A stretch of DNA of 64,000 nt from Chloroflexi bacterium HGW-Chloroflexi-4. Lineage in GTDB: Bacteria; Chloroflexota; Anaerolineae; Anaerolineales; Anaerolineaceae. The stretch covers positions 108,489-172,488 of the forward strand of contig PHBW01000009.1 in the NCBI GenBank assembly GCA_002840715.1. Reading direction: 5' to 3'. The notes beneath the pieces were generated by a model. It was not told the origin of the DNA, searched no databases, and was given only the letters and a program-made list of their open reading frames with translations. The position numbers and the translations under genes were made by a program. Positions 5,627 through 14,684 of the stretch are shown piece by piece. Numbering within the stretch: the first letter of the stretch is position 1; every line of letters starts with the position of its first letter.

Positions 5627-6553
5627 TTGAGATATCTAATTACCGGTGTTGCAGGTTTTCTTGGTTCCGCCCTGGCAAATGCGTTGGTCGCGGACGGCCA
5701 CTCAGTAATTGGAATTGATGACCTTTCAACCGGTGACCCCAACAAATTGGTCAGTGGTGTGCAATTCAACCGGGCAGACGTTAATGACCGACCCAAGCTG
5801 TGGTCACTCTTACAAGAGGTCGATTGTGTCTATCATCTGGCAGCCCGTGTGATCGTTCCTGAATCTATTCTATATCCCCGTGAATATAATCAGGTTAATG
5901 TTGGCGGCACCGTCACCCTCATGGAGGCTATGCGAGATGTGGGTGTCAGACGCGTCGTATTTATCTCATCCGGCACAGTCTATGGCAACCAACCTGTTCA
6001 GCCGGTTACTGAAGACGCCATCCCCAATCCGCGTTCCCCTTATGCAGTCTCTAAATTAGCTGCCGAGTTTTACGTAAAATCCATCGGTTCGTTATGGGGC
6101 ATCGAAACCGTCAATTTGCGGGTTTTTAATGCCTACGGACCTGGCCAGCGCCGTCCGCCAGTCCACACACCAGTCATCCCAGGTTTTCTACGCCAGGCTT
6201 TTGAAAATGGCACCATTGTCATCCATGGAGATGGCAATCAAACCCGTGACTATGTCTACCGAGATGATGTGGTTGCAGCCATGAAATCCGCTTCGACCGC
6301 ACCTGAGATTAATAAATTGACCATCAATGTCGGCAGTGGCACAGAAATAAATCTTCGTGATCTTTCAAAATTGGCGATTGACGTCACAGGTGGAACTCCA
6401 GAAATCGTATATAACCCGCGTAATGAAGGCGGCTTGAGCCGCTTGTGTGCTGATCTCACATTGGCACGTGATAAACTGGGTTATGAACCCAAAGTATCTC
6501 TGGAAGAAGGCTTGAAATTGACCTTTGACCAGGATATTCGCATTAAATCCTGA
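5627..6553 (+). CDS. NAD-dependent nucleotide-sugar epimerase/dehydratase
   Basis: A 308-residue extended short-chain dehydrogenase, close in style to UDP-glucose 4-epimerases. It has the NAD-binding loop TGVAGFLG (6-13), a DDLSTG acidic end of strand 2, SSGTVYG (near 114) and the catalytic YAVSK (near 139-143). VFNAYGPGQRR and DGNQTRDYVYRDD are typical sugar-nucleotide contacts. The start is TTG with GAGAG upstream. The exact substrate cannot be told. It precedes an operon that includes a sugar acyltransferase, so a role in surface-sugar synthesis is plausible. Confidence 0.85.
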   Translation: MRYLITGVAGFLGSALANALVADGHSVIGIDDLSTGDPNKLVSGVQFNRADVNDRPKLWSLLQEVDCVYHLAARVIVPESILYPREYNQVNVGGTVTLMEAMRDVGVRRVVFISSGTVYGNQPVQPVTEDAIPNPRSPYAVSKLAAEFYVKSIGSLWGIETVNLRVFNAYGPGQRRPPVHTPVIPGFLRQAFENGTIVIHGDGNQTRDYVYRDDVVAAMKSASTAPEINKLTINVGSGTEINLRDLSKLAIDVTGGTPEIVYNPRNEGGLSRLCADLTLARDKLGYEPKVSLEEGLKLTFDQDIRIKS

Positions 6554-6622: not shown

Positions 6623-7216
6623 ATGACCTGTCTGCCAAAAAGTTTTTATCATGATGAGGTCACGCTTGTTGCACGCCGATTATTGGGAATGCGCTTGATT
6701 CGCAAACTGGAGGGCGTTCGCACTGGCGGCATTATTGTTGAAACTGAAGCCTATCGCGGCGAAGAGGATTTGGCTTGTCATGCGCGGGTTGGTAAAACAA
6801 AGCGCAACGCCATGCTCTATGAGGATGGCGGCAAGGCTTATGTCTATTTCACTTACGGCATGCATTGGTTGGTAAATGCAGTCACAGGTGAAGTGGGTTT
6901 CCCTGCCGCGGTGTTGATCAGGGCTATTCTGCCGCTTGAAGGTTTGGATGGCATTCAAGCCAGACGAAATAACCGTCCGCAATCAGAATGGTGTGATGGA
7001 CCAGCGAAAATCTGCCAGGCGCTCGCGATTGACGGAAAACTCAGCGGGAGCTTGCTTTATCAAGAGAACGGAGAATTGTGGATTGAAGAAGGAGAGCCGG
7101 TGGCGGATAATTTAGTGAAAACCAGTCCACGGATTGGATTGGGCGCCACCCCGGACCCCTGGAAGAGCCTTCCCTGGCGATTTTTTGTTGATTCGCAATA
7201 CATTGTAAACACATGA
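6623..7216 (+). CDS. aag: DNA-3-methyladenine glycosylase (AAG/MPG family)
   Basis: A 197-residue alkyladenine DNA glycosylase, which removes alkylated and deaminated purines in base-excision repair. Family signatures are IVETEAYRGEEDLACHA (catalytic glutamate), YVYFTYGMHWLVN (intercalating-loop region), LIRAILP and CDGPAKICQALAI. SPRIGL near the end is also typical. The length is normal for bacterial members. It appears to be the first gene of an operon: its stop overlaps the E1 alpha start by 4 bases. That pairing with a dehydrogenase-like system has no obvious functional logic. Confidence 0.92.
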   Translation: MTCLPKSFYHDEVTLVARRLLGMRLIRKLEGVRTGGIIVETEAYRGEEDLACHARVGKTKRNAMLYEDGGKAYVYFTYGMHWLVNAVTGEVGFPAAVLIRAILPLEGLDGIQARRNNRPQSEWCDGPAKICQALAIDGKLSGSLLYQENGELWIEEGEPVADNLVKTSPRIGLGATPDPWKSLPWRFFVDSQYIVNT

Positions 7217-8112
7217 CACTTGAAGAAGATTATTACCGAGATATGCTGCGCATCAGGCGGTTTGAAGAAACCGTTCTGGATGAATTTAAACGTGGCGTTT
7301 TTTCGGGCACAACCCACACCTCGATCGGACAGGAAGCCAATGCCGTCGGGGTGATCCGTCAGCTGCTGCCTGATGACATCATTCTCACCAACCACCGCTG
7401 CCATGGACACTTCCTTGCCTATGGCGGTGATATGCGCGCCTTGTTTGCAGAATTAATGGGCAGGCAGACCGGCATTTGCGGAGGACGCGGTGGTTCTCAG
7501 CACATTCATTATAAGAACTTGTATTCAAATGGTGTGCAGGGCGGTATTGTGCCCATCGCTGTCGGCATGGCCCTGGCCGAAAAACAAAAGAAATCTGAAG
7601 CGGCTGTGGTGGTTTTCATCGGTGATGGCACCCTCGGTGAGGGTGTGATCTATGAAGCTTTTAATATGGCAAGTTTATGGTCCGCACCATTATTGATTGT
7701 GGTCGAGAACAACCATATTGCCCAGACCACCCCCACCGAATATGCTCTGGCCGGGGATATTCGCATGCGTTTTCAAGCCTTTGGCATACCGGCGCTTGAA
7801 CTAGATACCAGCAGCGTGATGGAAATTGCCGGCAACACCTTTCAATTGATGCGTGAAGTGCACGAAGATTATTCACCCCGTGCCCTTATTTTGAATACCC
7901 AACGCTTTGGTCCCCATTCCAAGGGGGATGATACCCGTTCAGAAGAAGTTGTTGCTTTGCTCAAAGAACAGCACGATCCCCTCGCGATTATGGAAAGACA
8001 GCTTTCTTCTGCTTCAGTCAGCAGCATCCGTTCCGAAGTGGAACAGGAAGTCAAAGCAGCCTTTGAGACTGCCCTGGCAGACCCCGTAGCGCGCATGGAG
8101 GGCAGGGCATGA
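7213..8112 (+). CDS. 2-oxoacid dehydrogenase-type E1 alpha subunit
   Basis: A 299-residue thiamine-diphosphate enzyme subunit of the pyruvate/acetoin/branched-chain dehydrogenase E1 alpha family. The ThDP/magnesium motif GDGTLGEG begins near residue 137 and ends in VENNHIAQ. The N-terminal RRFEETVLDEF and GGRGGSQHIH segments are typical. It is about 20-60 residues shorter than most PDH E1 alpha chains and lacks an extended N terminus, resembling acetoin-dehydrogenase types. It overlaps the downstream E1 beta gene by 4 bases. With E1 beta it should decarboxylate a 2-oxoacid and acylate a lipoyl domain. The substrate is unknown. Confidence 0.88.
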   Translation: MTLEEDYYRDMLRIRRFEETVLDEFKRGVFSGTTHTSIGQEANAVGVIRQLLPDDIILTNHRCHGHFLAYGGDMRALFAELMGRQTGICGGRGGSQHIHYKNLYSNGVQGGIVPIAVGMALAEKQKKSEAAVVVFIGDGTLGEGVIYEAFNMASLWSAPLLIVVENNHIAQTTPTEYALAGDIRMRFQAFGIPALELDTSSVMEIAGNTFQLMREVHEDYSPRALILNTQRFGPHSKGDDTRSEEVVALLKEQHDPLAIMERQLSSASVSSIRSEVEQEVKAAFETALADPVARMEGRA

Positions 8113-9143
8113 AAACGACTGTGCTCGATTCACTCAACCAAGGTTTGATATCTGCTTTGAAAGCCGATTCAAGCGTCCATCTTTTGGGTGAGGATATTCT
8201 TGATCCATACGGCGGCGCATTCAAAGTCACGCGCGGATGCTCCACGGCTTTCTCCATGCAGGTGATTCCCACACCCATCTCTGAAGCTGGCCTGGCAGGC
8301 GTCACTGCCGGTATGGCGCTGCGCGGGCTGCGTCCGGTGCTTGAAATCATGTTCGGTGATTTCACCACCTTGATTGCAGACCAGCTCATTAACCACATTT
8401 CCAAATTTCGCTGGATGTATAACGACAGCGTAACGCTTCCATTGGTGATTCGCACCCCCATGGGTGGCCGCCGCGGATACGGCCCCACCCATTCTCAATC
8501 TCTTGAAAAATTGTTTATGGGTGTTCCAGGCTTGACCGTTCTGGTGCCTGCCAATTTCTCTGTGGGCATTCACTCACCCGGTAGTATTTTAGAAAACACC
8601 ATCCTGAACACGGATTCACCTGTTCTTTTTATTGAAAACAAGATGCAATATTTGCAGCCTTTGCTCACCGCTGAAACCCTGGCTGATTTTGAGGTCGACC
8701 TACGTTATGATCCAACCGACATCAATCAGCAATACCCAATCTATTGCCTGAGTATAAAGGGCGCACCGTCAGCTGCGGTGACAATCTCTGCTTATGGTTT
8801 TTGTGCCGAGTTGGCCAGACAGGCACAGTTGAAACTGGCATTTGAAGAAGAAATTTTTACAGAATTGATCATTCCCACCCGCTTATCTCCTTTTGCGCTT
8901 CAACCGCTGATGGATGTTGTTGCCCGGACCGGTAAAATATTATTAATTGAAGAAGGCACCCGCTCTCTGGGCTGGGGCGCTGAAGTAGGAACCCTTCTCG
9001 CGGAAACCTTGGGTGATAAGCTTAAACAGGTCAAACGTTTGGCTGCCCTTGAAACACCTGTCCCCGCAGCCGTGAGTCTCGAAACCGGAATGCTGCCGCA
9101 GCAAGAGGATATTGAAGCCCTCTTGAGAAAGATGAGTGCATAA
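8109..9143 (+). CDS. 2-oxoacid dehydrogenase-type E1 beta subunit
   Basis: A 344-residue partner of E1 alpha. Conserved E1 beta features are LGEDILDPYGGAFKVT, TPISEAGLAGVTAGMALRG (with the ThDP-activating glutamate), RTPMGGRRGYGPTHSQS and VPGLTVLVPANF. The C-terminal transketolase domain has IEEGTRSLGWGAEV. It is a little longer than usual E1 beta, with an insert after ENKMQYLQPL (about 180-205). The stop is directly followed by the ATG of the lipoyl fusion protein, so the three gene products are probably made in fixed ratio. Confidence 0.88.
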   Translation: MKTTVLDSLNQGLISALKADSSVHLLGEDILDPYGGAFKVTRGCSTAFSMQVIPTPISEAGLAGVTAGMALRGLRPVLEIMFGDFTTLIADQLINHISKFRWMYNDSVTLPLVIRTPMGGRRGYGPTHSQSLEKLFMGVPGLTVLVPANFSVGIHSPGSILENTILNTDSPVLFIENKMQYLQPLLTAETLADFEVDLRYDPTDINQQYPIYCLSIKGAPSAAVTISAYGFCAELARQAQLKLAFEEEIFTELIIPTRLSPFALQPLMDVVARTGKILLIEEGTRSLGWGAEVGTLLAETLGDKLKQVKRLAALETPVPAAVSLETGMLPQQEDIEALLRKMSA

Positions 9144-10235
9144 ATGCCTGATCTGATCCAGATTCTTGTTCCGCTGGTCAACCCCAATGAGAATGAAAGC
9201 CTGCTGGCATCATTGGCTGTCAAGGAAGGGCAGCAGGTCAGAAAAGGCGACCTATTGGCTGTTTTTGAGACCACCAAGTCCACTTTTGATTTGCTCTCAG
9301 AATCTGCAGGATTTATCCTGGGTATTCGTGCTGCCGAAGGGGATCTACTCAAAACGGGTGAGTTATTGTGTTATCTGGCACAAAGTGCTGACCAAACCCT
9401 GCCAAAAGATGCTCACCCTGAAGTATCAAAACCTGCGGCTCAAAACACGGGTGATCTACGCATCACACAACCGGCTCTTGCCTATGCCCAGTCCAATGGA
9501 ATAGATTTGAGCGTCCTTCCGGTTGGTCAACTGATTACTGAAAAAATGGTGAGGGAATTATCCGCTGCCGTTTTGCCTGAGATTGACCCAGGTACCTTGA
9601 TCATCTACGGTGGAGGAGGGCACGCCAAATCGTTGATTGATTTGATTCGCGCCGAGGGCAATTATCGCATCCACGGCATTTTGGATGACGGAATTGCCGC
9701 CGGTAGCCAGATCATGGGTGTGCCGGTATTGGGTGACGGCTCCAAGTTACCTGAATTGCGCCGCCAGGGTATCGGGTTGGCCGTCAATGCGGTGGGCGGC
9801 ATCGGCAACATTGCCCCGCGTCTGAAGGTCTATGAAAAACTGCGTCAGGCAGGTTTTGGGTTTCCCACGGTGATACATCCGCGTGCCTTCGTGGAACCAA
9901 CCGCTGTTTTGGGTGAAGGCGGCCAACTTTTCTTCAATGCTTATGTGGGCAGTGAAGTGACGGTAGGTTTTGGTTGTATCATCAATACTGGCGCGATTAT
10001 CTCGCATGACTGCCAGTTGGGTGATTTTGTGAATATTTCACCTGGTGCCATTCTTGCCGGTTCAGTGACGGTGAACGAACGCTCACTGGTTGGCATGGGT
10101 GTGACCGTTAATTTAAATGTCACCATCGGATCTGGCAGCCGTGTGGGCAACAGCGCCACCGTTAAGGCTGACGTCCCCGAGAACGGTGTGGTTCGTGCTG
10201 GTGGCGTCTGGCCAACAGACACAAGTGCCGGTTGA
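9144..10235 (+). CDS. lipoyl domain + E3-binding domain + PglD/NeuD-type sugar acyltransferase fusion
   Basis: A 363-residue fusion. Residues 1-80 form a lipoyl/biotinyl domain with the modification site ETTKS (K45). Residues about 108-143 (ITQPALAYAQSNGIDL ... LITEKMVREL) look like a peripheral E3/E1-subunit-binding domain. From about 152 the protein switches to a PglD/NeuD-type acyltransferase: nucleotide-sugar-binding IIYGGGGHAK, VIHPRAFVEP, then left-handed beta-helix hexapeptide repeats with the catalytic histidine in ISHDCQLG (near 287) and a GNSATV end. The normal E2 catalytic (CAT-like) domain is absent. With the adjacent E1 alpha/beta this suggests acyl transfer from lipoamide to a sugar amine, which is an inference. 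It is the last gene of the operon. Confidence 0.85.
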   Translation: MPDLIQILVPLVNPNENESLLASLAVKEGQQVRKGDLLAVFETTKSTFDLLSESAGFILGIRAAEGDLLKTGELLCYLAQSADQTLPKDAHPEVSKPAAQNTGDLRITQPALAYAQSNGIDLSVLPVGQLITEKMVRELSAAVLPEIDPGTLIIYGGGGHAKSLIDLIRAEGNYRIHGILDDGIAAGSQIMGVPVLGDGSKLPELRRQGIGLAVNAVGGIGNIAPRLKVYEKLRQAGFGFPTVIHPRAFVEPTAVLGEGGQLFFNAYVGSEVTVGFGCIINTGAIISHDCQLGDFVNISPGAILAGSVTVNERSLVGMGVTVNLNVTIGSGSRVGNSATVKADVPENGVVRAGGVWPTDTSAG

Positions 10236-13493: not shown

Positions 13494-14684
13494 ATGACTG
13501 AAAATTTGCCGTTCCTGGTTCCCATGTCTAGCCCTGACCTCACCGATGCTGAACGTGCACGGGTGATGGAAGTTGTGAATTCACCTGTCTTGAGCATGGG
13601 CAAACAAACCCAAAATTTCGAAAATGCCATTGCCGATTTTGTTGGTGCCAAACACGCTGTTGCGGTGAACTCAGGCACTGCCGGGCTGCACCTGTGTGTT
13701 CGGGCTGCAGGCATTGAAGCCGGCGATCTGGTAATTACCACACCGTTTTCTTTTGTCGCCTCCACCAATGTACTGTTGTTTGAAAAAGCAGTGCCTGTGT
13801 TTGTCGATGTAGATCCGCTCACCGGCAATTTGGATGTGGATTTACTCGAAAAAGCGGTGGCTGACCTGGTCGAAGGTGGTGAAGCGGCCAGAAAATGGCT
13901 GCCCCGCGACGGTGCACAAAACCACGGTAAATTGAAGGCCATCCTGGCGGTGGATGTATTTGGCCAGCCTGCCGACTATGACAGAATCATCAAACTGGTC
14001 AAAAAATTTGATCTGAAGTTGATTGAAGATTCTTGTGAATCTCTGGGTGCTGAATACAAGTCAGTCAAGACCGGGTTGTTTGGTGATTACGGGGTGTTTG
14101 CTTTCTATCCCAACAAGCAGATCACCACCGGTGAAGGCGGTATGATCGTTACCAACGATGACAATGCTGTCTGCCTGATGCGTGCTTTGCGCAACCAGGG
14201 ACGTGCCCCCGGAGATAACTGGCTGCAACATACCGAAATGGGTTACAACTACCGCATTGATGAACTCAGCGCTGCACTCGGTGCAGTGCAGATGACCCGC
14301 ATTGAAGAACTGCTGGATAAACGCCAACAGGTTGCAAATTGGTACTCCGAACGTCTGGCTGAAATTCAGTCTGTTGAAGCACCCGGTATTGCAAAAGAAA
14401 CGACCCGCAATAGCTGGTTTGTCTATGTGATCAAGGTTAAACCTGGCATGGACCGCGATCAGTTGGCTGCGAAGTTAACCGAAGCGCGGATTCCGGTAAG
14501 ACCCTATTTTCTACCCATTCACTTGCAGCCTTACATGATCAAGCAGTTTGGTTATCGTGAAGGAGACTACCCTGTGACTGAAGATCTTGGAAGGCGCGGT
14601 CTGGCCTTGCCTTTTTCTGGTGTCATGACCGAAGACCAGGTCGAAACCGTTTGCCAAACTTTGCGCCGTTGTTTGCTTGCTTAA
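13494..14684 (+). CDS. DegT/DnrJ/EryC1/StrS family sugar aminotransferase
   Basis: A 396-residue PLP enzyme that transfers an amino group to a keto sugar nucleotide. It has HAVAVNSGTAGLHL (phosphate-binding region), LIEDSCESLGAEY (PLP-ring aspartate), the lysine in FYPNKQITTGEGG (K208) and MGYNYRIDELSAALG. An insert of about 15 residues near 120-150 separates the family motifs. The sugar product is unknown; it could feed amino sugars to the acyltransferase at 9144. TAAAAT lies eight bases before the ATG, so transcription may start very near the start codon. Confidence 0.88.
   Translation: MTENLPFLVPMSSPDLTDAERARVMEVVNSPVLSMGKQTQNFENAIADFVGAKHAVAVNSGTAGLHLCVRAAGIEAGDLVITTPFSFVASTNVLLFEKAVPVFVDVDPLTGNLDVDLLEKAVADLVEGGEAARKWLPRDGAQNHGKLKAILAVDVFGQPADYDRIIKLVKKFDLKLIEDSCESLGAEYKSVKTGLFGDYGVFAFYPNKQITTGEGGMIVTNDDNAVCLMRALRNQGRAPGDNWLQHTEMGYNYRIDELSAALGAVQMTRIEELLDKRQQVANWYSERLAEIQSVEAPGIAKETTRNSWFVYVIKVKPGMDRDQLAAKLTEARIPVRPYFLPIHLQPYMIKQFGYREGDYPVTEDLGRRGLALPFSGVMTEDQVETVCQTLRRCLLA

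Follow-up and report, generated by a model that had tools for sequence, protein, structure and literature searches.

A lipoyl–NeuD fusion encoded beside E1 genes in an Anaerolineaceae bacterium: a candidate system for lipoamide-driven sugar N-acylation

The window analysed here is a 64,000-nucleotide stretch of contig PHBW01000009.1 from Chloroflexi bacterium HGW-Chloroflexi-4 (genome G000; throughout, G numbers denote genomes and L numbers loci). Within it lie three consecutive genes, encoding the E1 alpha and E1 beta subunits of a thiamine diphosphate (ThDP)-dependent 2-oxoacid dehydrogenase and a protein in which a lipoyl domain and a peripheral subunit-binding domain (PSBD) are fused to a PglD/NeuD-type sugar N-acyltransferase (Table 1). 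The tight linkage described in the original prediction is confirmed: the two E1 reading frames share 4 bases, and the ATG of the fusion, at 9144, starts at the base directly after the E1 beta stop codon (9141-9143). Residues 6-294 of E1 alpha can be aligned with human pyruvate dehydrogenase (PDH) E1 alpha, with retention of the GDG...NN ThDP motif and the phospho-loop histidine, and E1 beta keeps the HSQS histidine when aligned with solved E1 beta chains; as judged from these alignments, both subunits retain the PDH-type motifs for ThDP binding and acyl transfer.

Table 1. Positions in the window of the gene trio, the parts of the fusion protein and the linked aminotransferase gene (aa, amino acids)
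Feature	Coordinates	Strand	Basis
E1 alpha (ThDP-dependent 2-oxoacid dehydrogenase), 299 aa	7213..8112	+	PF00676 (E1_dh) 1.5e-48; alignment with human PDH E1 alpha
E1 beta, 344 aa	8109..9143	+	Pfam Transket_pyr 1.9e-21, Transketolase_C 3.7e-12 (PF02779/PF02780); alignment with solved E1 beta chains
Lipoyl–subunit-binding–PglD/NeuD N-acyltransferase fusion, 363 aa	9144..10235	+	Pfam, NCBIfam, profiles, predicted structure
Lipoyl domain, aa 5-79	9156..9380	+	PF00364 (Biotin_lipoyl) aa 7-78; profile matches many E2 lipoyl domains; Foldseek 3crk_C lipoyl domain, root-mean-square deviation 1.5
K45, predicted lipoylation site (ETTKS)	9276..9278	+	K in 108/108 family members having the column
Degenerate peripheral subunit-binding (E1/E3-binding) domain, aa 104-142	9453..9569	+	profile match 2eq8_C E=7.8e-5; helices 109-117 and 133-141
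PglD N-terminal nucleotide-sugar-binding Rossmann domain, aa 150-233	9591..9842	+	PF17836 (PglD_N, aa 152-233) 1.1e-13; D181/D182 near-invariant
Left-handed beta-helix acyltransferase domain, aa 241-358	9864..10217	+	hexapeptide repeats (Pfam); predicted structure
H288, predicted catalytic base	10005..10007	+	aligned with PerB H141; H in 106/107
DegT sugar aminotransferase, probable 4-amino sugar supplier	13494..14684	+	closest solved relatives perosamine synthetases; homologue near fusion in 34/87 loci

The domain order foreseen for the fusion protein stands, from the lipoyl domain, with K45 as the lysine of its ETTKS motif, to the acyltransferase that replaces the E2 core. The protein scores 185.7 bits against NCBIfam TIGR03570 (NeuD; curated cut-off 160.8), and its Rossmann and beta-helix part superposes on the perosamine N-acetyltransferase PerB (4ea7) with a Z of 30 over 206 residues; PglB, VioB and PglD are the next structural matches, entries 4ihf-4ihh, of the LpxA/LpxD kind, also appear in that comparison, and Pfam finds no 2-oxoacid_dh E2 catalytic domain (DHR..DG) in the chain. 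The AlphaFold2 model, built from 80 sequences, has a predicted local distance difference test score (pLDDT) of 93 overall and of about 85 in the middle segment (an input of 17 sequences gave a poor beta-helix and a pLDDT of 74). In that segment the model places two helices around a short turn helix, and a 25-sequence profile of residues ~100-143, searched against the PDB, retrieves the subunit-binding domain of a Thermus E2 (2eq8_C) and the PDH-E2 domain 1w4i (0.0042). From the profile matches and the two-helix model taken together, the middle segment is, as had been proposed, a true though degenerate subunit-binding domain.

Residues on which both halves of the protein should depend are conserved across the family (counts here and in Table 1, such as 108/108 and 106/107, include some duplicate sequences). 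G29, E42, T44, K45 and G56 are invariant in the family alignment A1. In PglD-type structures, His 142 serves as the base, Asp 40/41 as the nucleotide-binding pair and Gly 160 as part of the oxyanion hole (PMC8040287); their equivalents, as assigned by alignment, are H288, D181 (108/109 members) together with D182 (109/109), and G306, which sits at H288+18 and is invariant. A loss of the catalytic histidine or the sugar-binding residues across homologues, named in advance as evidence against the proposal, is therefore not seen. Neither is a separate, normal E2 within the cluster, which we reject: no E2 catalytic domain was found in about 130 loci with the E2 catalytic domain of G000 and the DHR..DG motif as queries.

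The co-occurrence of lipoyl and NeuD/PglD domains in a single chain extends well beyond this genome. Of 61 relatives, 22 have the fusion in full length, with further copies truncated at contig ends. When 84,980 species genomes were scanned with the conserved N-terminal lipoyl motif alone, 80 loci emerged, mostly in Anaerolineae, but also in Lujinxingia vulgaris TMQ2, another member of the Lujinxingiaceae, a Polyangia metagenome-assembled genome (MAG), four Actinomycetota and a ‘Proteobacteria’ MAG. With duplicates removed, the fusion is conserved in 87 loci (Chloroflexota, Lujinxingiaceae, Myxococcota, Actinomycetota and the ‘Proteobacteria’ MAG), far beyond what chance would allow. Adjacency to E1 genes, the companion check, is just as pronounced: 76 fusions were read in the lipoyl-motif scan, and for 74 of them genes for E1 alpha and/or E1 beta lie within 6.5 kilobases (kb), a linkage that is independent of the search since E1 formed no part of the query, and both exceptions hold an E1 alpha of the cluster type elsewhere in the genome. 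E1 beta overlaps the fusion or ends no more than 100 bases before it in 66/87 loci, and in eight loci E1 alpha and E1 beta are a single protein. A plasmid search with the fusion gave 47 matching records, none covering 80% of the query and, among the matches listed, covering the NeuD part only.

Ten relatives carry a stand-alone NeuD in place of the fusion. Around eight of these genes (L053, L054, L056, L057, L059, L060, L061 and L063) the conserved neighbourhood of epimerase, glycosylase, bactofilin, CAAX protease and DegT is at least partly visible, and E1 alpha, E1 beta and the lipoyl module are all missing. A cluster-type E1 alpha is present anywhere in the genome in none of the ten, as against 23 of 25 fusion genomes (Fisher 3.6e-7, uncorrected for kinship); of the two remaining, G042 has a fusion truncated where its contig begins, and in G041 the catalytic histidine of the fusion is missing as well. 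The stand-alone forms nest within the fused clade at two places in the tree. Whilst the NeuD gene alone is compatible with their forming one clade (approximately unbiased test, p 0.21), the flanking-gene tree, based on incomplete columns and a simpler model, rejects this with p about 1e-37, and with it a single loss of the arm. E1 and the lipoyl-PSBD module thus move as a unit, probably lost at least twice with the sugar enzyme kept, as expected of an acyl-donor system that acetyl-CoA (coenzyme A) can replace. Both stand-alone groups have also changed the same six otherwise conserved columns (263, 266, 279, 282, 284 and 315 in window protein numbering), of which 266/284 and 279/315 are spaced by 18 and 36 residues, that is, by whole coils of the helix; we do not rely on this as the mark of a shifted donor site, as the CoA-using outgroup NeuDs lack the same residues and the groups were chosen post hoc.

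Elsewhere in G000, a separate 805-aa E1, with alpha and beta in one chain, adjoins a regular 417-aa E2, and since that E2 has an adjacent E1 of its own the E1 of the window is not needed for the ordinary complex. The genome also encodes the lipoyl synthase LipA and an E3 (lipoamide dehydrogenase; TIGR01350 match above cut-off at G000:C20, outside the cluster), so that lipoylation of the arm and its reoxidation should both be feasible.

The neighbouring genes speak to the sugar side of the system. A DegT sugar aminotransferase lies within 6.5 kb of the fusion in 34/87 loci, often immediately downstream, and a PglC-type phosphosugar transferase (PF02397) is found nearby in 29/87; G000 encodes, at another place, a homologue with 69% identity to the PglC-type protein. 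The perosamine synthetases to which the aminotransferase of the window is closest catalyse the partner step of PerB, the substrate of which is GDP-perosamine; the Asp pair of the fusion, for its part, resembles that of the UDP-binding PglD. Of the two genes put forward as suppliers of the sugar, the aminotransferase at 13494 is the better supported, given its kinship and the frequent position of its homologue directly downstream of the fusion. The epimerase at 5627 is similar to UDP-glucose 4-epimerases, stays in its slot after loss of the E1-lipoyl module and is missing at the majority of the other loci with the fusion, and so is not shown to be a supplier. The suggestion that the products would be ‘unusual’ N-acyl sugars finds no support as regards the acyl group, which could be plain acetyl.

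Synthesising these findings, we propose a 2-oxoacid dehydrogenase-type complex in which a PglD/PerB-type sugar N-acyltransferase has replaced the E2 core and acyl groups are passed on from a 2-oxoacid to a cell-surface sugar without acyl-CoA, a reading drawn from sequence and predicted structure to which we assign a probability of roughly 0.7. E1 alpha and E1 beta would use ThDP to decarboxylate a 2-oxoacid, in the simplest case pyruvate, and would reductively acylate the lipoyl group on K45; the subunit-binding domain would dock E1, and perhaps E3, on a trimeric NeuD core, and the lipoyl arm would then swing to the NeuD active site. There, a nucleotide-4-amino-6-deoxysugar made by the DegT aminotransferase would serve as acceptor, with H288 deprotonating the sugar amine and the acyl group moving from dihydrolipoamide to the amine, after which E3, encoded elsewhere, would reoxidise the dihydrolipoamide with NAD+. 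The net reaction would be 2-oxoacid + NDP-amino sugar + NAD+ -> NDP-N-acylamino sugar + CO2 + NADH (NDP, nucleoside diphosphate), with no acyl-CoA taking part. The absence of an E2, the retained active-site residues, the linkage to E1 and the loss of E1 together with the lipoyl module all lend support to the transfer from lipoamide to an amino sugar that the original prediction put forward.

Some observations do weigh against this proposal. No E3 gene is present at any fetched fusion locus, most genomes with the fusion are MAGs, and the Pfam model E3_binding (PF02817) gives no match at E<=1 in 17 fusion members, which places the middle segment below Pfam detection. The only fusion with a glutamine at the position of the catalytic histidine, L048:7914-9098, has no E1 genes nearby, and is possibly a decaying copy. 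Moreover, the NeuD domain may still accept CoA thioesters, because its family uses acetyl-CoA and the relatives without the E1-lipoyl module keep NeuD.

This last point leads to an alternative in which NeuD remains an acetyl-CoA-using enzyme: either the lipoyl arm and E1 would only make acyl-CoA locally, or NeuD itself would hand over the acyl group of lipoamide first to CoA and then to the sugar. The characterised NeuD/PglD/PerB enzymes are indeed CoA-dependent (PMC8040287), and the stand-alone relatives occupy the same slot with no arm at all. Set against this, none of the loci encodes an E2 catalytic domain that could turn the acyl group of the arm into acyl-CoA, and an arm and a sugar enzyme joined in one chain at 87 loci are more in keeping with direct transfer. 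LpxA and LpxD, themselves left-handed beta-helix enzymes, already accept acyl groups from a carrier protein, so that this fold has a precedent for donors bound to a carrier; on balance, we regard dependence on CoA as unlikely.

It is less likely again that the fusion is a protein X-like accessory of a normal PDH or branched-chain 2-oxoacid dehydrogenase (BCKDH), the arm and PSBD serving an E2 core encoded elsewhere and NeuD acting mainly as a trimeric scaffold. The separate E2 of G000 and the trimeric state of the NeuD fold (PMC8040287) would both allow for such a role, but that E2 has its own adjacent E1, the catalytic and sugar-site residues of NeuD are conserved, the loci carry aminotransferase and PglC genes, and NeuD persists in the same neighbourhood after the arm is lost. 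We consider it most improbable of all that E1 and the arm perform some other sugar chemistry, such as a two-carbon transfer to the carbon of a keto-sugar to give branched sugars, with NeuD acting separately; ThDP enzymes are capable of C–C ligation, but here the invariant lipoyl lysine has an N-acyltransferase as its fusion partner instead of a sugar C-transferase, and E1 retains PDH-type motifs.

The arrangement recurs in independent parallel forms. A second type of lipoyl-NeuD fusion, with an ETDKV motif, occurs in other Chloroflexota (L103/L104); in L104:2810-7050 (-) it is followed by E1 alpha, E1 beta and a DegT aminotransferase gene, in an operon that also includes a Gfo/Idh oxidoreductase. 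In Actinomycetota, L161:796-2391 (+) and L203:4065-5633 (-), which lie beside E1 genes, join a lipoyl-PSBD unit to another left-handed beta-helix hexapeptide acyltransferase whose closest kin are maltose/galactoside-type O-acetyltransferases, and in L161 a lipoyl-NeuD fusion adjoins this gene on the opposite strand. Lujinxingia vulgaris TMQ2 has two E1 alpha-E1 beta-fusion cassettes (L115 and L202), with a PglC-type sugar transferase after the second of them. We would give somewhat better than even odds to a new class of acyl-transfer complex, in which a lipoyl arm feeds interchangeable hexapeptide ‘heads’ (NeuD-type for N-acylation, with at least two lipoyl-NeuD types, and maltose/galactoside-O-acetyltransferase-like in Actinomycetota) and couples 2-oxoacid metabolism to surface glycans independently of CoA.

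The loci also vary in their accessory genes. The methylpurine-DNA glycosylase gene upstream of E1 alpha (6623-7216; 3-methyladenine type) shares 4 bases with the E1 alpha start and is retained in this slot in most near relatives, which seems to place a DNA repair gene and sugar genes together in one operon. A few relatives have a large open reading frame between E1 alpha and E1 beta (L043:4381-6285 and L141:4993-6975), which in L043 encodes a protein of tetratricopeptide-repeat and histidine-kinase-like make-up. In one Chloroflexota clade (L122, L143, L146, L151, L171 and L189) a reverse-strand gene of the DUF4013 type (Pfam, L122) lies between E1 beta and the fusion, and in L033, L034, L035, L042, L053 and L054 genes for an NRAMP-type metal transporter and a UspA-like protein are inserted between the fusion, or NeuD, and bactofilin.

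If the proposal is correct, acyl groups on bacterial sugars would come directly from 2-oxoacids by way of a lipoyl arm, independently of CoA; the specificity of E1 would set which acyl groups cells attach, each acylation would yield NADH and CO2, and sugars would be added to the acceptors that the lipoyl arms of 2-oxoacid dehydrogenases serve. Lujinxingia vulgaris TMQ2, a named strain with two cassettes, provides a ready test system. In the open-access literature we found no description of the E1/lipoyl-NeuD combination or of 2-oxoacid-driven, CoA-independent sugar acylation, and there is a good chance that biochemistry would make of the fusion system a new class.

Each of the modules is already known, and it is their combination that appears to be new. 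With the PDH, BCKDH and acetoin dehydrogenase complexes the system shares E1 alpha and E1 beta, the lipoyl domain, the subunit-binding domain and, we infer, E3 and a trimeric core; but where these have a chloramphenicol-acetyltransferase-like E2 core and CoA as acceptor, here there is a sugar N-acyltransferase of unrelated fold and a predicted amino sugar. With PglD, NeuD, PerB, VioB and EpsM (TIGR03570) it has in common the whole C-terminal two-domain enzyme, the catalytic histidine, the Asp pair, the DegT partner and, at many fusion loci, a PglC-type transferase, such that the steps of the PglE/PglD/PglC or EpsN/EpsM/EpsL sets are matched by a PglD bearing a lipoyl arm; it departs from them in this N-terminal arm, the subunit-binding domain, the dedicated E1 genes and in having lipoamide, not acetyl-CoA, as its predicted donor. 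LpxA and LpxD are likewise left-handed beta-helix sugar acyltransferases with a carrier protein as acyl donor, but their carrier is free acyl-ACP (acyl carrier protein) from fatty acid synthesis, as opposed to a fused lipoyl domain loaded by E1. Finally, E2-like N-terminal modules are attached to other catalytic domains too, an example being the alpha/beta-hydrolase 7qjm, with a PSBD-like segment found by PDB profile search; unlike the lipoyl-NeuD fusion, these have no link to sugar acylation.

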